Part shown: in pieces, positions 12,432 to 40,897 of the stretch
How positions within the stretch are numbered: the first letter of the stretch is position 1
Layout: each line of letters opens with the position of its first letter
Source of the DNA: a virus
IMG/VR virus record: IMGVR_UViG_3300038701_000883
Span: 1-40,897 of that record
DNA length: 40,897 bases
Strand: one strand, 5' to 3'
Notes under the pieces: generated by a model
What the model was told of the DNA's origin: nothing
Database searches by the model: none
Seen by the model: only the letters and a program-made list of their open reading frames with translations
Program-made: the position numbers and the translations under genes

Positions 12432-12767
12432 ATGCCCGAATTCACCAATGCCGGCGGCTCTCTTGGCCGCTCCATCTACGACGCGCCAGAGCGCAGTGGA
12501 AGCGAAATCGAAGCGGAGCGCATCGAGCGGATCATGGCGCAGGTGTCGCGCCGTGATCTCGAGCGCGCGCTGATCGTCATGCTGTCGGCGGCACGCACGG
12601 CAGAGGGCGAGCAGGGCCGCTTGCACGACACCCTCCGCCCGGTCGTCTCGAAGGCGCTGCAGGACTGCATCGACAACATCGGGAGCGCGCTGGTCGAGGA
12701 GGGAATCGACCAAGTCGCGGAGATCATCGGCGCCGACGCCCTCGACATTCTGGAAGGCGACGCATGA
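12432..12767 (+). CDS. First gene of the rightward unit, helical protein of unknown function
   Basis: 111 residues. ATG 12432 was chosen because AAGGAAA lies just upstream and because the longer frame from 12339 would begin before the promoter. The protein is helical and acidic, with IERIMAQVSRRDLERALIVML in the middle and a C-terminal EEGIDQVAEIIGADALDIL. The stop overlaps the methyltransferase start (ATGA). As the first early product it may be a host-takeover or anti-defence protein, but nothing in the sequence shows this. Confidence 0.75.
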   Translation: MPEFTNAGGSLGRSIYDAPERSGSEIEAERIERIMAQVSRRDLERALIVMLSAARTAEGEQGRLHDTLRPVVSKALQDCIDNIGSALVEEGIDQVAEIIGADALDILEGDA

Positions 12768-13789
12768 CGGCGTACTACAACGAGATCGACCCCTTCGCGG
12801 CTGAGTGGTTGCGGAACCTGATCGACGCAGGGCACATCGCCCCGGGCGTCGTGGACACCAGAAGCATCACAGAGGTGACAGCGGATGACCTTGCCGGATT
12901 CACGCAGTGCCACTTCTTTGCAGGGATCGGTGGATGGAGCCTCGCAGCTCGACTTGCCGGGATTCCCGACGACTACCCCATCTGGACCGCCAGCTGCCCC
13001 TGCCAGCCGTTTTCGGTCGCCGGGCGCCAGCGCGGAGTCGACGACGAGCGCCACCTGTGGCCCGTCTTCCGCGACCTCATCGCGCAGTGCCGACCTGCAG
13101 TCGTCGCTGGAGAGCAGGTTGCGAGCAAGGCTGGCCGGGCGTGGCTGTCCGGTGTACTCGATGAAGTGGAAGGTCTGGGATATGCCGGGGCGGGAGCCGA
13201 TTTGTGCGCTGCGGGCGTCGGCGCCCCGCACATCCGCCAGCGCCTCTACTGGGCGGCTCTCGCCGAACACGTCGGACGGCACGGCGGAGCAGCTGCTGGC
13301 CCGGAAACAGGCCATGGCGGACCGGGGCGTGCAGCAGGGCGTCTCGGTGACGCAGCTGGCGCATCAGGCGCAGATCGCGGGCTGGGTCACGCCAAGCGCC
13401 CGGGACTGGAAGGACACCCCGGGCATGAGCCTGACGGGCACGAACCCGGACGGGACGCTCCGCGCGCGGATCGACCAGCTGCCCCGGCAGGCGGCGATTG
13501 CGGGGTGGCAGACGCCGAAAGTCGCGGACGCGACAGGCGGGCAGACAAGCCGAGGCGGGAAGCGGAAGCACGAGTTGCTGCTGGGGGGCGAGGCGCGAGC
13601 AGCGGCGGCTGGGATGATGTCATCTGGCTCCCTTGCGCCGACGGAAAAGCCCGGCCCATTGAACCCGGCCTTGAGCCGCTGGCTCATGGGGTTCCCGGCC
13701 GCGTGGGACGAGTGCGCGCCTACGGGAACGCCATCGTCCCGGAACTCGCAGCCGAATTCCTGATGGCTGCATTGGAGGAGGACAACTGA
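12764..13789 (+). CDS. DNA C5-cytosine methyltransferase
   Basis: 341 residues. It transfers a methyl group from S-adenosylmethionine to C5 of cytosine, probably shielding phage DNA from restriction. Motif I is HFFAGIGGWSLAARLAG (residues 50-66), motif IV is SCPCQPFS with catalytic C80, motif VI is GEQV where ENV is usual (E117 retained), motif VIII is HIRQRLYW, and motif X is AYGNAIVPELAAEF near the end. Between about residues 165 and 290, where a target recognition domain should be, this frame is a Gly/Ala/Arg/Asp-rich sequence of low complexity. The same DNA in the +1 frame encodes an orderly protein (12885-13763). Ends in TGATG overlap with csrA. Confidence 0.92.
   Translation: MTAYYNEIDPFAAEWLRNLIDAGHIAPGVVDTRSITEVTADDLAGFTQCHFFAGIGGWSLAARLAGIPDDYPIWTASCPCQPFSVAGRQRGVDDERHLWPVFRDLIAQCRPAVVAGEQVASKAGRAWLSGVLDEVEGLGYAGAGADLCAAGVGAPHIRQRLYWAALAEHVGRHGGAAAGPETGHGGPGRAAGRLGDAAGASGADRGLGHAKRPGLEGHPGHEPDGHEPGRDAPRADRPAAPAGGDCGVADAESRGRDRRADKPRREAEARVAAGGRGASSGGWDDVIWLPCADGKARPIEPGLEPLAHGVPGRVGRVRAYGNAIVPELAAEFLMAALEEDN
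12885..13763 (+). CDS. Overprinted +1-frame gene within the methyltransferase gene
   Basis: 292 residues, entirely inside the methyltransferase gene. ATG 12885 has its own Shine-Dalgarno, GAGGTGA, six bases ahead. The protein is not a random shadow: it has SLESRLRARLAG and VYSMKWKVW (residues 74-98), a CALRASAPRTS segment, two W-x-T-P motifs (GWVTPSARDWKD at 167-178, GWQTPKVADATGG at 208-219), DQLPRQA, and an ending LNPALSRWLMGFPAAWDECAPT (part, 259-280) then SSRNSQ. I recall this same series of motifs in proteins of prophages, also beside or within C5-methyltransferase genes. Role unknown; a partner or substitute recognition subunit is an inference. Conserved amino-acid motifs in this frame explain the degenerate middle of the methyltransferase frame. 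Confidence 0.78.
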   Translation: MTLPDSRSATSLQGSVDGASQLDLPGFPTTTPSGPPAAPASRFRSPGASAESTTSATCGPSSATSSRSADLQSSLESRLRARLAGRGCPVYSMKWKVWDMPGREPICALRASAPRTSASASTGRLSPNTSDGTAEQLLARKQAMADRGVQQGVSVTQLAHQAQIAGWVTPSARDWKDTPGMSLTGTNPDGTLRARIDQLPRQAAIAGWQTPKVADATGGQTSRGGKRKHELLLGGEARAAAAGMMSSGSLAPTEKPGPLNPALSRWLMGFPAAWDECAPTGTPSSRNSQPNS

Positions 13790-16926: not shown

Positions 16927-19533
16927 CTACGGATTCGGATCTCTGCCGAGGCGGCGGGCTGCTCGCATGAGCTCCTGTCGCCTCGCGCCGCCCATGGTGA
17001 GGATGTCGCTCACGGTGTTCCCCTCCGGCCGCGCAGACGCTGGGCGCACACGACCGAACGCATACCCGGCACGCTCGAGCGGCGCGCGGTACGGAAGCTC
17101 CGGGTCGGACAGCAGCGTCGCGAAGTCAGGCGTGTCGTAGATCATGGAGTCCGTGAGGCGACCCTGCTGGATGAACTCTGCTGGGTCCATGCTGTTCGCC
17201 ATGGCGTTCTCGCGCGCGGCCTTGGCGAAGCTCCACGCGGATTCCTGCACTTCGGCCGGCGTCCAATCCATCCCGGTTCGATCTCGCAGGATCTCCGCCG
17301 CCTGTCGCGTCAGGGAATTCGCAGCGAGGTAGCCAGGGCCTTTCCCGGGGTCCGTGGCCGCCTTGTTGGGAGAGCCGCTGAACGTAGTCTGCGGGACGCC
17401 GAGAAGCCTTCCCTGCCAGGTGTCGTTCGTGACCTCGATCGGGTCTGTGAGGTTCCCGCGATAAGGAAACGCCAGGTTCCGCGCGAACGAATCGACCTTC
17501 GGGCCGGACAGGATGGCGTAGGGGAGCTCCTCGTCTGGAATGCCCAGCGACGTGAAGCTGTTGTTCCGCCACGCGCCGAGCACGCTGTCGACGCCCTTGT
17601 TGCCTTGCACCTGCCTGCCCATGATCTGCAGGATCGATTCCGCGTCTTCCGGGCGCTGCGAGCGCAGCCAGTCTGACCAGATGTTCACGGTGTTGAGCAG
17701 GTTGGACTCGACGCTGGTCTGCGGAGACGTGGCCGCAAGCAGCATCGAGAACCTGCGCGCATCGTCCTCGAACACGTCGGAGAGCGCGGCTGCGCTGTCC
17801 TGATACCAGCCACGCTTGGCCTGACCGGCCTGCGCCGCCGTCGCGAGCTCGGACGCCGACGGCATGGCGCCGCGATACCGAAGCATTCCTTCGGCCGAAT
17901 CTGCGCGCGACATCTTCGCCGCCTCTTCGGGCGTCAGGTACGAACCGGCAGACCGGCCACCACGCATCCCGGAGAGAGCAGCAGGGACCTCCGACGGCGT
18001 CGCAGTGCGGCCCGAACGCAGCCGCGACATGTCGAGGTTCCCGACAGCGCCAGTCTGCCTAGCGAACGCCGGCCGCGGCCCTTCGTTCATGGCATCCATG
18101 AAGTTGCGGCTGACATTCTGGCTCAGCTCCGAGTCCAGAGCAGCGCGCCCCAAGCGTCTCGCACCAGCCCCGATCGGCGCGACGGTGTCGAGCGCGTCCA
18201 TGCCGGCAGACAGGTTCTGCATCCAGTCTGTCCGGTCTCCTCGCCCTGTCGTGCGCGCCCACTCCGCCAGTCCTTGCCCCAGGCCAGTGGCCTGCAGGAC
18301 CCGCTGGAACGTGTCCATCTCGGACGGTCGGTTCTCGGCCAGGTAGTCGCCGATCTCGGCCAAGGCGCCCATGGCGCCGCTGTCGGGCAGCGCCTCGATG
18401 CGGTCGCCGCCGCCGTAGAGGCTGGCGCGCGACGATGCCATGGCCGCCTGGATCTCTGGCGGCGCCGGCCGGAACTCTTCTAGGGACGAGCCGTTGCCGG
18501 CCTCAGGGATGTCGAGCGCAGCGCGTGCGCGAGTGGGTCCGGGGCGGGCCATGTCGCTTCCTTCTGCTGATGCCGTGGCGGACAGCGCGGCCACACCCGC
18601 GCCCAAGGCGACGTCGCGCCCGCGCGGCATCGCAGCAACAGGCTGCCCGTTGCGCTCCACCACGTTGACGTTGCGGTCGTCGAAGATGACGTAGTTGCGG
18701 GTGCCCTCGCCTGCGTTGCGGGACACGCCGTCTAGATAGCGGATGCCGGGGATGCCAAAGCCGGACAGTTCTTGGCTGGCGCCATTGCCGTAAACGCGCC
18801 TCAAGTGCTCATATGCCTGCCCGCCAGTCATATTCCCTAGACCGGCAACGTCTATGTCATCTGGGTTCGCAGCCTCTGATTTTGCCTTTTTCGCCGCCCG
18901 CATAACTGCGCTGCGAATGTTGTCAGGCTGCTCCGACAGCGGCGCGTCCCAGTCCAGCAGGTCTTCGTCGGGGATTTCTAGGCGGTAGAGGGCGCCGGAT
19001 GGCGTCGTGACATCGGGAAGACGTGCGCCAGAGCGCAGCACGTCCGCTGGGCCAGTGTCGACCTCTTGGCCGAGATCACGCAACGCTGCGTTGCCTTCAT
19101 CAAGGTAGCGAAGCGCTCGCTCTCGGTCTCCGTAGAAGTGATCAACCCAGTATGCTGCAACATGATTTGGGTTGCGGATGTCGTAAGGCTGGCCGTCAAA
19201 CCGCTGAACGCGCGATAGCTGGCGCCGATAGTCCTCCGCTACCCCGCGTCGATCCGCAGCGTAGTACCCCGCCCCATACCGCTGAGCCCCCTCGCCGGAG
19301 CCCATGTGCGACAGGTCCACCTGATCGTAGGCGTGCGGCGACCCGTGCCACGCCTCCCGCGTGCGCTTGCCCATCTGGCGAGCCAAGGTGCCGAAGGGCG
19401 CAGCCTCTGCCTCCTCCGGCGCCATCGCCAGAGCGCCAACTATGGCCCCGCCAGCAGCTAGCTTTCGGTCTTCGCGCGCCTTTCTCGCGACAGCCTTGAC
19501 GGCGCGGCTGACAGGGACCTTCAGCGCAGCCAT
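16927..19533 (-). CDS. Large internal virion (ejection) protein with N-terminal ADP-ribosyltransferase-like domain
   Basis: 868 residues. The N-terminal domain fits the ADP-ribosyltransferase fold found in phage polyvalent proteins (ART-PolyVal). It shows AWHGSPHAYD (residues 61-70), RYGAGYYAADRR (85-96), and GIRYLDGVSRNAGEGTRNYVIFDD (parts, 263-286). A hydrophobic Ala/Gly stretch around 305-325 follows. The second half includes a segment near residue 600 (LAATSPQTSVE) that I remember from other polyvalent phage proteins of unknown function. As the last of the internal-protein genes it is probably packaged and injected with the DNA, so the domain could modify a host protein at once. Catalytic activity is inferred, since a diagnostic glutamate was not located with certainty. 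Confidence 0.78.
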   Translation of the reverse strand: MAALKVPVSRAVKAVARKAREDRKLAAGGAIVGALAMAPEEAEAAPFGTLARQMGKRTREAWHGSPHAYDQVDLSHMGSGEGAQRYGAGYYAADRRGVAEDYRRQLSRVQRFDGQPYDIRNPNHVAAYWVDHFYGDRERALRYLDEGNAALRDLGQEVDTGPADVLRSGARLPDVTTPSGALYRLEIPDEDLLDWDAPLSEQPDNIRSAVMRAAKKAKSEAANPDDIDVAGLGNMTGGQAYEHLRRVYGNGASQELSGFGIPGIRYLDGVSRNAGEGTRNYVIFDDRNVNVVERNGQPVAAMPRGRDVALGAGVAALSATASAEGSDMARPGPTRARAALDIPEAGNGSSLEEFRPAPPEIQAAMASSRASLYGGGDRIEALPDSGAMGALAEIGDYLAENRPSEMDTFQRVLQATGLGQGLAEWARTTGRGDRTDWMQNLSAGMDALDTVAPIGAGARRLGRAALDSELSQNVSRNFMDAMNEGPRPAFARQTGAVGNLDMSRLRSGRTATPSEVPAALSGMRGGRSAGSYLTPEEAAKMSRADSAEGMLRYRGAMPSASELATAAQAGQAKRGWYQDSAAALSDVFEDDARRFSMLLAATSPQTSVESNLLNTVNIWSDWLRSQRPEDAESILQIMGRQVQGNKGVDSVLGAWRNNSFTSLGIPDEELPYAILSGPKVDSFARNLAFPYRGNLTDPIEVTNDTWQGRLLGVPQTTFSGSPNKAATDPGKGPGYLAANSLTRQAAEILRDRTGMDWTPAEVQESAWSFAKAARENAMANSMDPAEFIQQGRLTDSMIYDTPDFATLLSDPELPYRAPLERAGYAFGRVRPASARPEGNTVSDILTMGGARRQELMRAARRLGRDPNP

Positions 19534-19534
19534 G

Positions 19535-21445
19535 TCACTGCTCCTGCAGGGCGCCGTAGGCGCTGCGGTAGCCTCGGAGGGTGTAGTCCATCCATTCGCG
19601 CACGACCTCCGGCGGAACCTCGAGGAGCCCTTCTCGGGCGCCAGCCTGGACGATCCGGTCGAGCTCTTCGGGCGTCAGATCACCGCGCACCAGCAGCTTC
19701 CGCATCTCCTTCGCGGTCTCTTCAGTGAGGCCAGCCGGAAACAGGATCTCCCGCACGGCATCGAACACGGTGGAGCCGAGGCGCGCCTGTGCCGCCTGAT
19801 TCGGCGCCGTGCGCGAGTTCACGTCCGGCGAGATGCGTCCGTAGGTCGAGCGCATCGTGGACTCTCCCTGCAGAGCCTCGAGCGCCGCGCGCCCTGCCTC
19901 CGGGGTCTGGGCGGAGCGCAGCATGGCATCTGCGCGTGCGCCGCCCTCCACGTCCGGCCGCAGCCTGCCAGCGAGATCCCCGGTAGCGGTCGCGTTCCTT
20001 CTCACAAAGTCGCTGGCGGACTGCGCGACGCCCAGGCGAAAGTCCTGCATGCCCATGGGGCTCAGGGTGCTGGCGAAGTCCATGATGTCTTCGATGCGTC
20101 GAGGGTCGCTGGTGTCCATCAGCCGGCGGCCGGAAAGCGGCGGCACCGGCTTGCCCGGGGGCGAGGCCCCCAGCGCCTGCAGGCTCTGAAGCACCTCGCC
20201 GTACCGCTCCCGCAGCGGCGCGTATTCCGTGACCACGGAGTCAGCTGCCTGCCGGATGCGCTGCGAGATCGCCGTGGCTCGCGCGCCCTCCTGACCGGAT
20301 CGCCCGGACCCCGGGCCGCCGGCCTGCGCCGCGACGGCGTCAAACTCCTTCTTCAGCGCGTCGATGAAGCCCATCGGGAGCTCGTCGGCGTCCATGTCGA
20401 AGCTCCCGAACCCGTTTTCGACCATCTCGTCGCGCGCGTTGCGGATGGCGCTCTGCACCATGGAACTGTCCGCATCGAGGAGCTCGGCGAAGGGCTCTCG
20501 AGGCACAGGGATGCCGCGGAGCTCGTCGTAGATCAGGCCGAGTTCGCCCGCCTTGTCGCGCAGGGACTGCACACGGCCGCGGTAGACCGCGCTGCTCTGT
20601 CCCAGCATGCTCTCCAGCGTGCTCAGGATCCGCAGCGGCGCGCCTTCTTGACGCTCGGTGACCGCCTGCAGCAGTTCCCCGCCGCCGGCGCGCTGGGTGG
20701 CCGCCACGGCCGCGTCGGGCGCCATGTCGGCCAGCATCCCCCGGCCGCCTAGGCTCTGGAGCTCTGCCGCCACCTGCTGCCCGGTGGTCATGTTGCCGCC
20801 CTGCACTATGTCTTGCCCGATCAGGGCTTCAGCCCGCTGCACCGGCGTGCTCGAGGCGATGTCGCCCATGCGACGGACACCAGCCGCCACCGCCGGCGCG
20901 GCTTGGCCTACCGGACCCATCACGGCGCCCATCGACGCCCCCATCCCGACCTCGCCCGGGGCGCTCTGGCCGCCTTCGGAGTAGCCGTAGGCCGCCGCAC
21001 CGCCTTCGGCCGCGCCAACGGACGACCCCATCGCCAGACGGCCCAGCGGGCTCATGCTGCGCGGCGCCGCGGCGACGGCGGACGGCGCAGCCAGGGCGCC
21101 GGCGATCTCGGCCCCCGTGAACGCGATCGGGTTGTCCTCTCGCGCCTCCCGGTTCAGCTGTCGTGCGCTGTCGCGGCGCTGCTCGTAGCTCATCGGGGAC
21201 AGGCCGAGGTTCCTGCGGTCGAGGCCACCGGCGAGCATGGCGATGATGGAGCCCACGCCGCCCGGCGTACCGAGCCCCTCGTAGCCGGTCAGGAGTCCGT
21301 AGAGCTCATCCCCGAACCCTGCCGTGACGCCTTGAGACGCGCCGGCAGCAGCAGACAGCGGCATGCCCCGGCGCTCACGCGGGGCCGGCGGCGGCGCCTG
21401 CTCCTCGCCGCCGATCTTCTCGCCCGTGAAGATGTCGATCGCCAT
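19535..21445 (-). CDS. Internal virion (ejection) protein with glycine-zipper-like hydrophobic region
   Basis: 636 residues from ATG 21445; the frame upstream of this point runs within the neighbouring gene. It starts MAIDIFTGEKIGG. Residues of about 30 to 210 are rich in Gly, Ala, Ser and Met (FTGAEIAGALAAPSAVAAAP, GAAEGGAAAYGYSEGGQ), like the membrane-active zippers of P22-type ejection proteins. The remainder is helical and acidic. It lies one base from each neighbour. The role in forming a channel across the host envelope is inferred from composition and position. Confidence 0.75.
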   Translation of the reverse strand: MAIDIFTGEKIGGEEQAPPPAPRERRGMPLSAAAGASQGVTAGFGDELYGLLTGYEGLGTPGGVGSIIAMLAGGLDRRNLGLSPMSYEQRRDSARQLNREAREDNPIAFTGAEIAGALAAPSAVAAAPRSMSPLGRLAMGSSVGAAEGGAAAYGYSEGGQSAPGEVGMGASMGAVMGPVGQAAPAVAAGVRRMGDIASSTPVQRAEALIGQDIVQGGNMTTGQQVAAELQSLGGRGMLADMAPDAAVAATQRAGGGELLQAVTERQEGAPLRILSTLESMLGQSSAVYRGRVQSLRDKAGELGLIYDELRGIPVPREPFAELLDADSSMVQSAIRNARDEMVENGFGSFDMDADELPMGFIDALKKEFDAVAAQAGGPGSGRSGQEGARATAISQRIRQAADSVVTEYAPLRERYGEVLQSLQALGASPPGKPVPPLSGRRLMDTSDPRRIEDIMDFASTLSPMGMQDFRLGVAQSASDFVRRNATATGDLAGRLRPDVEGGARADAMLRSAQTPEAGRAALEALQGESTMRSTYGRISPDVNSRTAPNQAAQARLGSTVFDAVREILFPAGLTEETAKEMRKLLVRGDLTPEELDRIVQAGAREGLLEVPPEVVREWMDYTLRGYRSAYGALQEQ

Positions 21446-21446
21446 A

Positions 21447-22751
21447 TCAGCCCCCCACCAACGGTCTGACCGCGCCGGCCTCGATTGCCTGCCGGAGCAC
21501 CTCCTCCGGGTCCGCGCCGCGCGCCCGCGCGGTCTCTTCGATGTCCTCCCGCGTGACCAGCTGCCCGTCGTCGCGGATGTACGTCTGGTCAAGCGCGCCC
21601 AGCGCCTCGTAGGCAGGCCCGGCCTGAGACCCCATACTCCGAAGCGCGCGCGCCCGCGCGACCTCCTTGTCTCGGCGCGTCTGCTCGTCGTCGCCAGGCA
21701 TCGGGAAAAAGGCGCGGAACTCCTGCGCCGCTTCTTCCGCCCCGATGACCGCGCCGGATTCCCGGCGCAGCTTGCCTCGGATCCACCGCTCTGCCGCCCG
21801 GGCGTAGCGTTGTTCCTCCGGCGACGCGGCATAGTTGGCGAAGCTCGAGATCGGCCCGTCGGCGCTGATGATGCGCGTGAGGACGCTGGTCGGGTCGAAC
21901 CCTTCGGTGCCGGCCACGTCGGCCAGCTGCCTCTGCGCCCCGACCATCTGGTCGAAGAACCCGAGCACCCTTGACTGAGCCTCGGTCGGCGGCTTCTGCG
22001 TGACGCCAAGCGGCACCCCGGACGGCGACGCGCCAGCCCCGGCGCCTGTAGCGCCTGCAGCCCCAGCGTCCGCCGCACCGGTGCCGAAGGGCTCGTAGCC
22101 CGCCTGCTGGATCATGCCGTTCAGGGCCTGCGCGTCCATCCCGGGCACCGTGTAGGTCCGGCCGTCCGCCGTCGTGTACTGCTTCGGCTTCGCGAGCTCG
22201 GTGAACGCGAGGCGCCGGAGATTCGGATCCGGACTGGTGAGTCCATTCAGCATCTGCGCGGGCATCCCCGTGCCCTCGAACGCAGGCTCTTCCGAGGCGT
22301 CCGTGCGCGGCGTGACCTCGCCCGTGCTCTGGTCGATCTGATACAGGCGGTCGCCGACCTCCTGGAACTTGTAGCGGTTCGCCGCGGCCGCCCGCATCTG
22401 CTGCGCCCGCTGCTGCGCCATCAGGTGCTGAGCCGCCATCCGCGTGCGGTGCGGCGACGTAGGGGCCTGGCCCTGCATGATCGAGCCCATGTCGTAGAGC
22501 AGGTCGCTCCACATCGCGCGCTTCGCCGAGATCGGGTAATTCGGCGGGGGCGAGTAGGCGGGCGGCATGTAGAACTGCGCCGGCGGCGCACCGGTCGGCC
22601 CGGACGCCATGGGCGCAGGCTCGCCCATCGGGGCGCCCGGGGACAGGGCTCCGCCTCGGCTCAGGGCGGGAGGACGGGGAAAGCCTCCGCCGGAGCCCTG
22701 CCCCAGACGCTCTGGCGCCAGGCCTGCGGCCTGCATGTTGATCCGTGCCAT
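21447..22751 (-). CDS. Internal virion protein, Pro/Ala-rich N-terminus
   Basis: 434 residues from ATG 22751, preceded by GAGGAG. The N-terminal 90 residues are Pro/Gly/Ala-rich and disordered. After a Gln/Ala helix comes a conserved-looking C-terminal half with FDQMVGAQRQLADV, RWIRGKLRRESGAVIG, and FFPMPGDDEQTRRDKE. I recall the R-x-E-S-G-A-x-I plus F-P-x-P-G-D pair from many podovirus internal or DNA-transfer proteins. Probably part of the ejectosome with the genes on both sides. Confidence 0.72.
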   Translation of the reverse strand: MARINMQAAGLAPERLGQGSGGGFPRPPALSRGGALSPGAPMGEPAPMASGPTGAPPAQFYMPPAYSPPPNYPISAKRAMWSDLLYDMGSIMQGQAPTSPHRTRMAAQHLMAQQRAQQMRAAAANRYKFQEVGDRLYQIDQSTGEVTPRTDASEEPAFEGTGMPAQMLNGLTSPDPNLRRLAFTELAKPKQYTTADGRTYTVPGMDAQALNGMIQQAGYEPFGTGAADAGAAGATGAGAGASPSGVPLGVTQKPPTEAQSRVLGFFDQMVGAQRQLADVAGTEGFDPTSVLTRIISADGPISSFANYAASPEEQRYARAAERWIRGKLRRESGAVIGAEEAAQEFRAFFPMPGDDEQTRRDKEVARARALRSMGSQAGPAYEALGALDQTYIRDDGQLVTREDIEETARARGADPEEVLRQAIEAGAVRPLVGG

Positions 22752-22761
22752 GGTGCGCTCC

Positions 22762-23976
22762 TCACCCGTATCCCGGGATGGCAGGGCTGTAGAAGGCGCC
22801 CCTCGGCATGCCACCCCAGAAATCCTGCCCCACCTGCGCGGCGCTGGCGGCGTTCGCAGTGCCGCCGGTGCTGGCGAAGGGATTCGGCATGCCTGCGACC
22901 TGCCCTGCAAGTTGCGCGACCTGCCCGATGCGCTGGAAGGGTGACGGCCGCTCGGTGGTCTCCTGCGTCGTCGTGCTCTCGCCTTCCGTGAACGAGCTCA
23001 TGCTCTGCGTGCCGAAGTTCAGCGCCGGGGCCATGGCGATGTCCATGAGGTTCGCCGCAGCCTGCATCGGCAGGAACTGGCCCTCGCTGTAGGCCTGCAT
23101 CTGGCCGCCGATCTCGGCCTGATTCTGGCGCTGGTAGACATCCCCGACCCCGGACACCATGCCGGGCAGCGACGCCTCCATGTTGAATCCCATGGCCGCG
23201 AGATCCGCGCCGGTCAGGCCCATGGCCGCGAGGCCCTGGTATCCGCCGGCGGCCTGCAGAAGCGCCTGGAGCTCCTGCTGTCGGCCTGCCATCGCGCCCT
23301 GGAAGTTGCGGCCGACTTCGTTCTCCGCGAGGCCCAGACCGGTGCGGTAGGCGTCGTAGCGCATCCCGGCGGCTACGTCCGCAGCCCGGTCCATCTCGCC
23401 GCGCTGGGCGATGGCCTCGTAGGCCCCTCGCCGAGAGCTCCCCAGGTTGCCCGACGCAGCGGAACTGAGCGCCACCCCGGGCAGCACGTTCTCGCTGAAG
23501 TTGCGCGATGCGTCGCGCAGGCTCGCGTCGATCATCTCATCCAGGTACGGGTTCTGCGCGATGCTGCTGGCGTAGTCGAGATCGACCCGGCCAGACTCGA
23601 TGGGCGCAGATTCCGCCAGAGACAGCAGGTCGCCGTAGGCGCCCCGGGCAAGGCCCATGTCGCCCTCGACGCCGCCGAGCAGATCCATGCCGGCGTCGCT
23701 CATGCCGGTGGCGATGTCGGCGCCGCGGCCGCCGGCGAACTCGAGCACGGCGTCGAGGCCCGCGATCTGCTCCGGCGTCAGGTCTGCGACGCGGTCTCCG
23801 GAGAAAGGCTCGAACTGCTCGCCAGTCATGTCCGTGATCTGGCGAAGCAGGTTGTTGATCGCGTCGGTCGCCGGAGCGTAGGGGTCTCGCCGCTGCGTCT
23901 GCTCGGTTGTCTCCGAGTACGTCTGGCTGGTGTTCGTCTGCGAGTCGCTCTCGAAGAGGTCCGAGAAGAATCCCAT
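22762..23976 (-). CDS. Internal virion protein
   Basis: 404 residues. It starts MGFFSDLFESDSQTNTSQ, a short amphipathic N-terminus followed by a Thr/Gln/Ser stretch common in phage proteins of this type. The central part is helical and Gly/Ala/Met-rich with GVALSSAASGNLGSSRRGAYEA, which recurs in proteins of phage DNA-transfer gene sets. The C-terminal region is again Gly/Ala/Pro-rich. First of the three to four consecutive large ejection-type genes. The name is inferred from order and composition. Confidence 0.7.
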   Translation of the reverse strand: MGFFSDLFESDSQTNTSQTYSETTEQTQRRDPYAPATDAINNLLRQITDMTGEQFEPFSGDRVADLTPEQIAGLDAVLEFAGGRGADIATGMSDAGMDLLGGVEGDMGLARGAYGDLLSLAESAPIESGRVDLDYASSIAQNPYLDEMIDASLRDASRNFSENVLPGVALSSAASGNLGSSRRGAYEAIAQRGEMDRAADVAAGMRYDAYRTGLGLAENEVGRNFQGAMAGRQQELQALLQAAGGYQGLAAMGLTGADLAAMGFNMEASLPGMVSGVGDVYQRQNQAEIGGQMQAYSEGQFLPMQAAANLMDIAMAPALNFGTQSMSSFTEGESTTTQETTERPSPFQRIGQVAQLAGQVAGMPNPFASTGGTANAASAAQVGQDFWGGMPRGAFYSPAIPGYG

Positions 23977-28966: not shown

Positions 28967-29374
28967 TCACGCTCCGATTGCGTTGATGATGGAGAGCTCT
29001 CGCTTCGGGCGAGCCGGTCGGCTCATGGGCCGCGCTGCTGTGACCTGCTTCGGCATGAGCGCGGGGTGGTTGATCTGCAGCCACTTCATGAATCGGTCCT
29101 TCTCGCCGCCCTCGTTGCGCGCCCACACGTCGTAGCCTATCCGGCGCTGCGTGAGGTAGTCGATCAGCAGGCTCTGCGGGATCGACCCGCGGTAGGTCCA
29201 CTCGCGCGGATTGCCGCGAGACGGCGCACCGTTGACCTTCGCGTCCATGAAAGCGACGTGGCTCTTGATCGCCTCCACGTTCTGACGGTGGCCGCGATAC
29301 GCGACCCCGTCCTCGTAGCCGAAGTAGCGCGCGATGTCGCCGCTGTGGCGCGTGACGCGCTTGATGTCAGCCAT
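28967..29374 (-). CDS. Hypothetical head/neck region protein
   Basis: 135 residues. Contains VEAIKSHVAFMDAKVNG and an SLLIDYLTQRRIGYDVW helix, with a basic Pro/Arg-rich tail ending in SIINAIGA. Eight-base overlap with the sulfotransferase stop and one base from the adaptor. Position suggests a neck or assembly protein. No family recognised. Confidence 0.7.
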   Translation of the reverse strand: MADIKRVTRHSGDIARYFGYEDGVAYRGHRQNVEAIKSHVAFMDAKVNGAPSRGNPREWTYRGSIPQSLLIDYLTQRRIGYDVWARNEGGEKDRFMKWLQINHPALMPKQVTAARPMSRPARPKRELSIINAIGA

Positions 29375-30281
29375 CGGCCGCCTCCTTCATGCGCTGCCGA
29401 GCCTCCTCGGCCGCCGCATCCTGCGCGCTGCGCTGCGCGTCCACGAACGCCTGGTCGGCCTCTGCGGGCGGCTCGAGGTCTTCCTCGCGCACGCTGTTCT
29501 TCGCGCCGTTGGGCCGGGTCTCTTCGGTGGCCTCCGCGGTCACGGTGTTGGCGGCCTTCGCCACCTGGTCAGCGGCTTCCTCGGCCGTGGGCTCCTTCAC
29601 CTTCTTCGGGCGGCCCCGGCGCTTCCCCTCTGACCCCTGGGTCCTTTCCGGTTCCGGCGGGTCGAAGGGGTAGGACAGCATCTCGAAGTCCTGCGCGTAC
29701 CGGGCGCGGACGAGCGTGACGAGCTCGGGCGTCCACTTCGGCGGCTCGGCCTTCGACGGGTTCAGGCGCCGCAGAGGCTGCACGATGGTCCCGCAGTGCG
29801 CGCGGATCTGCGTCGTCAGGTCTTCCCAGCGGTCCTCGATGGTCTCGAGCGGCACGAGGATGTCCCAGCAGGGCTTGCCCTCGTAGTGCCAGTCCCAGGT
29901 CTGCAGGCGCACATGCGGGTCGGTGCCGGCGTTGTCGCGCGTGGCGGCCACGGCGTGGATGAAGGCGTCGAAGTCCATGCCGTGCTTCACGCCGTGCTTC
30001 AGGAGGTTCGGGTGAGAGCGGTCGATCACCTTGTCCCGCCAGCAGGACACGAGACGGTCGAACGGGTTCCGACAGATGGCGATCCGCAGGTAGCCGCGGT
30101 TGCCGGCGTCGAAGGCGTCTAGGGGGCCGATCCTCGGGATGGCGCTGCGGCGCAGGCTCGACTGGTTGTGGACGCCCAGCAGCGGCGCCAAGGCGTCGGA
30201 GACGCTTGTCGTGCCGCACTTGGCGGCCTGTAGCACGATGATCTTCGAGTCGCGGAAGTGCAGGTTCTGGGATGCGGGCAT
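29367..30281 (-). CDS. PAPS-dependent sulfotransferase with AT-hook C-terminal extension
   Basis: 304 residues. The first 206 residues form a carbohydrate-type sulfotransferase, which moves sulfate from PAPS to a sugar. The 5'-phosphosulfate loop is QAAKCGTTSVSDAL (18-31). The 3'-phosphate loop is ICRNPFDRLVSCWRDKV (69-85), and the domain ends RYAQDFEMLSYPF. All are at the usual spacing. An unrelated tail of about 95 residues follows: GKRRGRPKKV (219-228), a textbook AT-hook, then an Ala/Glu-rich helix. The gene sits between coat and adaptor in the head cluster, which is unusual. Substrate unknown (host surface glycan, or the virion). No PAPS synthesis gene is present, so the donor would be the host's. 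Confidence 0.85.
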   Translation of the reverse strand: MPASQNLHFRDSKIIVLQAAKCGTTSVSDALAPLLGVHNQSSLRRSAIPRIGPLDAFDAGNRGYLRIAICRNPFDRLVSCWRDKVIDRSHPNLLKHGVKHGMDFDAFIHAVAATRDNAGTDPHVRLQTWDWHYEGKPCWDILVPLETIEDRWEDLTTQIRAHCGTIVQPLRRLNPSKAEPPKWTPELVTLVRARYAQDFEMLSYPFDPPEPERTQGSEGKRRGRPKKVKEPTAEEAADQVAKAANTVTAEATEETRPNGAKNSVREEDLEPPAEADQAFVDAQRSAQDAAAEEARQRMKEAADG

Positions 30282-33041: not shown

Positions 33042-33153
33042 TGCGTTGAATCCTCATCAGTTGCCGGTGCAGGAGCGGAGACTGCTTCTCCGCGTCCGGT
33101 TTCGGGGTCAGGGAGTTCTTCCGCATCAGCATGCGGTTCTTCGTCTGGCTCAT
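32878..33153 (-). CDS. Small basic protein after portal, overlapping the next gene
   Basis: 91 residues from ATG 33153, which overlaps the portal stop (ATGA). The first 40 residues look like a real protein (MSQTKNRMLMRKNSLTPKPD). The last 50 read like the out-of-frame version of the following gene (many Arg, Ser, Pro). Either both are translated with a 164-base overlap or a frame change joins the N-terminal part of this frame to the next gene. Confidence 0.45.
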   Translation of the reverse strand: MSQTKNRMLMRKNSLTPKPDAEKQSPLLHRQLMRIQRNARSAHRERERRFTLWRSERHAGRDPGALPDDPAVRPSRERSIDLGGRPSRKSR

Positions 33154-39552: not shown

Positions 39553-40779
39553 TTATTTGTCCCATTCATAGCTCTGGCTCCGGGAACCAGCCTTGGGCAT
39601 CTGCCTCGGCATCGGTGAGTGCGTTGGCTTGCAGCGTTGGCGGCAGAAGTTCGGCCACGGTCAGGGTGCTATCCCGCGCGGCTTCTAGAACGGCGGCGAG
39701 TTCATCCTGCTCTTGCTGCGGGATCGGCAGTGCCGAGACGAATGCAGCGATGTCGGCATCGGGCGCGACGCGCTGGGTATAGGTGTCGGGGATCGAGAGG
39801 GCCACGTCGCCGGACTGCGGGTGGATGATCCAGCCCACCGCGTAGCGGGTCGTGCCCGTGGCGGTCGGAACAGCCAGCGCCCAGAGCGCGGCGCTCATGG
39901 CCTGCGCGTAGTCGATGGTGGGGTGGGAGAGGGAGAGAATCATGACGCAGTCCCCGAGATGCCATAGCGGTCCAGCATGGACTGCTCAATCGCCACCCGA
40001 TCTGTGGCGTCGCCTACTACGATGACCTCTGCGAGTTGGTCGCTTAAGGCAGCAGTGATAACGCTGCCAGAAATATAAGCTCCGACCGTTAGTGGAGCCG
40101 TTGTATCGTTCAGCGTACTAAAACTGTCGTCACGGATTACGGTTGGCGACGTGACAGCCACGCCGTCCAGATACAACGTCAGCGCGCTAGATTCCCACTT
40201 GAACGCCACGACATGAAAACCGGATGAAGAAACCCCCGATCTGTAAGCCTTGAGGTTTGAAGCGGTGCCGTCCTCGCTCAATGCCACATTTAAGCGGTTA
40301 TCAAATTCCCCAATCACCCAGCTGCGTTCGTCAATTCCTGAATTATATGATCCTGCCGCCGTAGATAGGCTGGCATTGTTAGCAAACTCAACCACCACCG
40401 CGACATATAGGCTCGTGCGATTACCGCCGACCGGCGACGCTGCCTCCAGAATGCTGGTGCCGCCGAAATCAGGCGCAGGCTCTCCGTTGATGTTCTCGAC
40501 GCTGCCGCTCGTAACGATCTGCGGCTGCTCGGCTGCGGTCGCTTGATCAACGTCAAGCGCAGAGCCGGACTGATCATAGATAGTGGCGACGAAACCGTTA
40601 TTGGCGCCCGTAAATGTGGTAAGCGCGCTCTGATCCAGCTCGCTTGCGTCGTTGAACCCGATGTCCTGCTCAGTGTTGTCGGAGGACCGCCGCACGCGCA
40701 CACCGTCGCCCGTGTAAGCAGAGCGCAGCTGGAACGCCGTCGAGTACGCTGCAAGGACGTTGGAGACGCCATCGAGGGG
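38820..40779. repeat. Terminal repeat, right copy (matches 1-1960)
   Basis: See the left copy. Beyond 40779 the sequence turns into a different version of the adhesin stalk, so the contig ends in a variable region, as expected when an assembler meets two strains. Confidence 0.95.
39566..39943 (-). CDS. Small protein between adhesin and receptor-binding protein, copy 2
   Basis: Identical to 747-1124 at offset 38819; see that entry. It represents the same gene seen from the other end of the contig. Confidence 0.75.
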   Translation of the reverse strand: MILSLSHPTIDYAQAMSAALWALAVPTATGTTRYAVGWIIHPQSGDVALSIPDTYTQRVAPDADIAAFVSALPIPQQEQDELAAVLEAARDSTLTVAELLPPTLQANALTDAEADAQGWFPEPEL

Positions 40780-40897
40780 AAGACCCCCAGCAATCTGCCC
40801 ACTCGCCGCACTAGCCGCCGAGTCGGTGCCGTTGGCGTTGGTTTCGGTTTGCACTGCCCGGACGTACTCGTCCTCATCGGCACTGACGAGCGTGTAC
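39940..40897 (-). CDS. Tail adhesin, second allele, 5' end beyond the window
   Basis: About 319 residues of the C-terminal part, open at the window end. From LPLDGVSNV onward it equals the protein of 1121-2674. Upstream the two differ: here the end of an Ig-like repeat (VQTETNANGTDSAASAASGQ) runs into the C-terminal domain after only AGG. In the other allele about 30 extra residues (ITAVSGAFSEVTWDSS and on) lie between them. This is a different stalk on the same binding domain. The junction is at 40779/40780. Confidence 0.85.
   Translation of the reverse strand, partial: YTLVSADEDEYVRAVQTETNANGTDSAASAASGQIAGGLPLDGVSNVLAAYSTAFQLRSAYTGDGVRVRRSSDNTEQDIGFNDASELDQSALTTFTGANNGFVATIYDQSGSALDVDQATAAEQPQIVTSGSVENINGEPAPDFGGTSILEAASPVGGNRTSLYVAVVVEFANNASLSTAAGSYNSGIDERSWVIGEFDNRLNVALSEDGTASNLKAYRSGVSSSGFHVVAFKWESSALTLYLDGVAVTSPTVIRDDSFSTLNDTTAPLTVGAYISGSVITAALSDQLAEVIVVGDATDRVAIEQSMLDRYGISGTAS

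Follow-up and report, generated by a model that had tools for sequence, protein, structure and literature searches.

At the end of the virion gene run of an uncultured, short-tailed phage lies a gene (16927..19533, minus strand) for an 868-residue protein that combines an ADP-ribosyltransferase (ART) domain of the ART-PolyVal type with a C-terminal DUF7178 domain. The N-terminal half is a real ART domain of a known phage kind. With moderate confidence, we consider the whole to be a small polyvalent virion protein delivered together with the phage DNA, in which the ART domain would modify a host macromolecule and the DUF7178 domain would act on a nucleobase.

The gene and its ART domain

The window, i.e., the whole stretch of DNA analyzed, comprises 40,897 bases and is a complete IMG/VR virus record. 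No phage record close to it was found in the INPHARED collection, and a nucleotide search for near phages returned only short matches to a lysozyme gene. The gene under study is the last one of a leftward virion run and forms an intact open reading frame with an ATG start, and frame 1 of the plus strand over the same interval contains stops. Directly upstream, a gene of the ejection run with a match to phrog_5880 (19535..21445, minus strand) is separated from it by a single base between stop and start codon (TGA-C-ATG). A second upstream gene of the same run, with no family match (21447..22751, minus strand), and a homologue of the PHROG “DNA ejection protein” (22762..23976, minus strand; E 2.4e-12) follow, and an SU10-type portal protein is encoded in the same phage at 33150..35273 (minus strand; E 1.7e-76). 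A search for promoters and terminators around 16927..19533 gave nothing above chance. The virion run also includes a sulfotransferase-like gene (29367-30281, minus strand; phrog_3347, E 6.5e-7), with the major head protein on one side of it and the tail genes on the other. In addition, phrog_10356, a virion structural protein, is matched over about equal profile positions by two different genes near opposite ends of the record (1121-2758 and 39940-40854, minus strand).

The ART domain covers residues 55-307 (18613..19371, minus strand). Its relatives were gathered from viral contigs, and the counts given for them are among the matches listed; as the matches exceed those listed, the family is large. 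A profile built from 82 relatives, which excluded the 868-residue protein and the three sequences nearest to it, recognized this region with an E-value of 5.1e-74 (245 bits), compared with 7 bits for the best of 999 shuffled controls. PF18760 (ART-PolyVal) was matched by 75 of the 86 members of the ART alignment (best E 4.9e-9) and DUF3990 by 24; RES, PARP, and Exotox-A, which are families of the ART superfamily, were each matched by a single member or a few. For the 868-residue protein itself, PF18760 stayed below detection (none at E ≤ 0.1), a DNA search likewise giving no match. Where a PF18760 match could be located in relatives of the subfamily, it comprised only approximately the first 45 model positions and was below the cut-off, and the model probably misses the 868-residue protein because the subfamily carries long inserts. 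Searches of Pfam, NCBIfam, and the PDB sequences with this protein yielded a weak DUF7178 match besides chance matches, and of the two family profiles compared with PDB sequences, one had no match and the other chance matches only. An endolysin identity (phrog_873, a profile of 1277 positions) was considered and rejected; the match lies over the ART part.

The AlphaFold2 model of the ART domain has a pLDDT of 91 and aligns in VIA with the PARP catalytic domains of tankyrases (Z ~8.7, range 8-9; ~116 residues aligned, rmsd 3.4). A preliminary description of this DNA had proposed an ART-like domain with three motifs, on a protein whose gene closes the ejection gene run. All of this was confirmed: the domain by family profiles via its relatives, by the predicted fold, and by conserved catalytic positions, the motifs at residues 63-70, 86-94, and 277-286, and the location by the ejection-type PHROG matches upstream and the one-base spacing to the ATG.

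The DUF7178 domain

The same description had overlooked the C-terminal DUF7178 domain, which extends over residues 543-825 (17059..17907, minus strand). PF23802 (DUF7178) was matched by all 48 of the 48 relatives of this domain. The 868-residue protein reached E 0.0011 with PF23802, which is below the curated cut-off, and E 2e-102 with a DUF7178 profile built without it. The domain, also represented by phrog_3842, is present in many phage contigs, and only three cellular genome contigs, all from MAGs, encode a relative, so that it is essentially a phage domain. A literature search for DUF7178 and phrog_3842 returned no paper. In at least five other contigs (L113, L144, L121, L153, and L086), ART and DUF7178 are fused within one ORF, and in two (L109 and L110) they are neighboring genes; the L121 protein, with 3062 residues, additionally contains LPD22, a domain of polyvalent proteins. 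Their recurrent fusion or adjacency suggests two modules that are linked in function and subject to shuffling. The protein thereby unites two unrelated domains in a single polypeptide, as is characteristic of phage polyvalent proteins (at least two), the activity of the second domain being a predicted one.

Its AlphaFold2 model is all helical (pLDDT 88, pTM 0.84) and had no significant Foldseek match in the PDB. Re-alignment with VIA placed HhH-GPD DNA glycosylases in 22 of the best 23 rows, a count that includes 1xg7, whose title reads “conserved hypothetical protein” but which resembles AGOG-type glycosylases and was taken as one. The top rows were the OGG2-type structures 3n0u and 3knt, with Z 9.9 over 180 residues, a value below 13 being weak by itself for helical models. 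Two invariant residues add weight to the glycosylase reading, as they occupy the catalytic helix positions. K679 (71/71), the last residue of SGPK (residues 676-679; 17497..17508, minus strand) in the hairpin of a predicted helix-hairpin-helix, stands first in the helix that follows the SGP hairpin, and D704 (71/71), within EVTNDTW (residues 700-706; 17416..17436, minus strand), caps the next helix like the catalytic Asp in HhH-GPD enzymes. In OGG2 enzymes, the pattern is G-x-K-x-x-S...R-N...D, and Asp stands 18 positions from Lys, a spacing also found in DUF7178 relatives devoid of a short insert that the 868-residue protein has. The hairpin Lys of OGG2 is present in 3fhf and replaced by Gln in 3knt, which we read as an inactivating change. 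DUF7178 thus resembles the OGG2-type 8-oxoguanine DNA glycosylases (3n0u, 3knt) in predicted fold, hairpin Lys and Asp, and 18-residue spacing, but differs from them by the lack of a significant sequence-profile match: hhalign scores against OGG2-type sequences fell inside the null, and PF22175 (Ogg-HhH) had no match in seven records, i.e., the six brought in by DUF7178 and the window. Since the sequence-profile relation is not significant, we did not file DUF7178 as an HhH-GPD member; judged from the model, a glycosylase-like fold is probable.

It is nevertheless quite possible that the domain is no glycosylase but a nucleoside hydrolase of the queuine-salvage type, an amino-acid:DNA transferase (ADDT), or a non-catalytic DNA-binding domain. 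The one remaining row among the best 23 was the queuine salvage enzyme DUF2419, in fourth place with Z 8.3, and an ADDT protein of phage LilMcDreamy appeared as a weak BFVD match (E 1.9). Against these assignments stand the invariant Lys and Asp at glycosylase/lyase positions with OGG2 spacing and, for the transferase in particular, the fact that the ADDT Pfam model had no match in the DUF7178 records. This alternative concerns the second domain only and is compatible with our preferred explanation of the ART half.

Putative active site of the ART domain and its match in a pre-ejectosome

The strand-1 motif HGSPHAYD (residues 63-70; 19324..19347, minus strand) contains the catalytic-type pair H63-G64, with H in 99/102 and G in 102/102 sequences. 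It is followed by the strand-2 motif YGAGYYAAD (residues 86-94; 19252..19278, minus strand) with the invariant Y91 (102/102) and by the strand-5 motif GTRNYVIFDD (residues 277-286; 18676..18705, minus strand), in which N280 is present in 102/102 and position 285 is D in 72/102. Across the ~102 distinct ART domains, conservation amounted to 100% for G64, E81, Y91, Y183, Q202, D268, and N280, to 98% for Y102 and D196, to 97% for H63, and to 71% for D285. A recount on the 86-row ART alignment gave one exception each for D268 and a few others, and the 868-residue protein keeps all columns that are invariant therein.

For the ART-PolyVal clade (N4-ART, Tox-ART-HYD2), an active site of H on strand 1, Y on strand 2, and D on strand 5 has been described (PMC5512222). 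In our reading of the sequences, this strand-5 Asp would be D285, and with this assignment H63, Y91, and D285 represent the H-Y-D set of the 868-residue protein. The subfamily shares with ART-PolyVal the H-Y-D residues, the ART fold, the fusion to other domains, and the virion gene neighborhoods. It differs from ART-PolyVal/N4-ART by long inserts, a conserved block of the DEDLLDWDxPLSEQ type, an invariant Asn280 ahead of the strand-5 Tyr/Phe, and a variable D285. PARP enzymes possess a GxGIYFA...Y block and the strand-5 motif E-Y-(V/I)-(V/I)-Y. By motif, GxGYYxA...Y of the subfamily resembles the former, and N-Y-V-I-F stands at the place of the latter. In the VIA alignment with tankyrase 2, the last pair is model residue 248 and chain residue 1155, and N280, corresponding to model residue 231, lies 17 positions earlier. 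Glu1138, the catalytic Glu of tankyrase 2, is likewise located 17 positions before residue 1155, an ungapped register being assumed. Judged from this modeled alignment, the invariant strand-5 residue of the subfamily appears to be Asn280 in the PARP glutamate slot. Such an exchange would be in keeping with mono-ADP-ribosylation or NADase activity but also with a loss of activity. Considering the replacement of the PARP Glu by Asn280 together with the presence of Asp at position 285 in only 71%, transferase activity is not assured.

The best structural match of the ART model was chain B of 9k3a, the pre-ejectosome of cyanophage A4, with a Foldseek E-value of 2.6e-4 and, in VIA, a Z of 10.3 over 149 aligned residues at 13% identity. 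The sequence of this chain is identical to ORF27L of Anabaena phage A-4L, a “tail protein” of 1717 residues, whose gene (L209:20116-25269, minus strand) belongs to the A-4L virion run and is situated late in it. In ORF27L, an ART-fold domain that is absent from the annotation and features SLYHGT and GSGTYF lies within residues 1279-1604. In hhalign, HGT...GSGTYF of ORF27L was placed on HGS...GAGYYA of the ART profile (P 0.0036), and Pfam had no family match in ORF27L, DUF7178 included. Both proteins carry an ART-fold domain, in ORF27L with HGT/GSGTYF, within a large ejection-type protein. They differ in that ORF27L is longer (1717 residues) and its ART-like domain is highly diverged and located near the C-terminus. 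An ART-fold domain carried by an ejected protein has a direct precedent in 9k3a_B.

The same match also lends itself to another view, i.e., that the ART-fold domain is a pseudo-enzyme and a structural part of the ejectosome, assembling or anchoring the ejection complex and modifying nothing. That the closest structure was resolved inside a pre-ejectosome would suit such a role, as would the Asn at the position of the PARP strand-5 acid. We regard this as unlikely, however, on account of H63, G64, E81, Y91, Y102, D196, Q202, D268, and N280, conserved to 97-100%: their retention across ~100 divergent ART domains with ~35% identity to that of the 868-residue protein is a pattern typical of active sites. 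Furthermore, the ART domain is not confined to proteins of the present size but also occurs in ORFs of 270-400 residues (open frames, some of them truncated where the contig stops) as well as within giant proteins.

Proposed delivery with the phage DNA and possible function

Some relatives are encoded immediately behind the portal gene. An ART or DUF7178 ORF begins where the portal ORF ends in eight loci (L002, L003, L094, L113, L135, L143, L145, and L164), small overlaps being only apparent since ORFs were counted from stop to stop. At loci with a recognized structural homologue, the latter was always found on the same strand as the ART or DUF7178 ORF (21/21 and 15/15); as such homologues were recognized by single-protein phmmer, run with the gene under study and its neighbors, in a minority of the relatives' loci, the synteny covers those loci. 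In Sulfitobacter phage phiGT1, the ART gene is positioned two genes after the portal gene and shortly before the scaffold gene.

In the nearest relatives (L002:4794-7055 and L003:2803-4449), two ART domains are arranged in tandem immediately after the portal gene. The first of them matches PF18760 and is joined to the second by a hydrophobic linker of the type found at residues 27-46 of the 868-residue protein (AGGAIVGALAMAPEEAEAAP; 19396..19455, minus strand), which is common to L001-L003. Judged from this tandem arrangement and linker, the first ART domain appears to have been lost from the 868-residue protein. Here, Ala/Gly-rich hydrophobic linkers flank the ART domain on both sides (residues 27-46 and ~308-323) and may serve membrane passage or domain separation.

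The idea of an injected ART is not new in its general form. For the ARTs of polyvalent proteins as a group, it was put forward as a prediction by Iyer et al. 2017 (PMC5512222), who found ARTs to be the commonest predicted protein modifiers among phage polyvalent proteins, and packaging and injection of such phage ARTs are predicted in PMC9503650 as well. The preliminary description had taken T4 Alt as its model, which did not hold beyond analogy. Alt belongs to the R-S-E clade of ARTs (PMC5512222), and the R-S-E active site is absent from the 868-residue protein, which exhibits motifs of the H-Y type instead. Alt is thus no relative but a member of a different ART clade, sharing the general idea of an ART whose delivery alongside the phage DNA is predicted.

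Gene position, portal synteny in relatives, and the A4 precedent together make delivery of the 868-residue protein with the DNA plausible. That it is instead an unpackaged enzyme, made late and with NAD+, ADP-ribose signals, or nucleic acid as its targets in the producing cell, e.g., against host defence, appears quite improbable. In favor of this view, packaging in the phage of the window is argued by gene position only, and a part in conflicts over NAD+ has been discussed for phage ARTs (PMC9503650). Against it speak the place in the operon behind the ejection genes, the portal-linked synteny in relatives, and the ART-fold domain inside a solved pre-ejectosome.

According to our preferred explanation, delivery with the phage DNA, the 868-residue protein would be a late product like the ejection proteins; packaged into the head, it would enter the host along with the DNA. 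There, based on fold and conserved residues, the ART half would ADP-ribosylate a host macromolecule using NAD+, most likely a protein, in the course of early takeover or counter-defence. For the DUF7178 half, the predicted structure more tentatively suggests an active site resembling that of HhH-GPD glycosylases, with which this half might act on a nucleobase of DNA or of some other nucleic acid. A more specific version, in which one injected protein unites two chemistries of the N-glycosidic bond, i.e., an ART and an HhH-GPD-type glycosylase/AP lyase excising a host or modified base, is rather doubtful at present. The main text of the 2017 survey of polyvalent proteins (PMC5512222) does not mention a glycosylase, and the pairing of an ART with a glycosylase-fold partner is potentially a new element. 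The window also contains a C5-cytosine DNA methyltransferase gene in the rightward cluster (12764-13789, plus strand), whose product could protect the phage DNA if a packaged glycosylase-like domain attacks DNA.

Before the A4 match, the delivery of ARTs of polyvalent proteins was inferred from context. This match places an ART-fold domain physically within an ejection complex, rendering the idea of an injected effector testable in cultured relatives. In parallel, the recurrent pairing of ART with a domain of predicted glycosylase fold provides a functional hypothesis for DUF7178/phrog_3842 and points to two residues, K679 and D704. With a single polypeptide, this phage may inject a pair of enzymes that modify the host or DNA.
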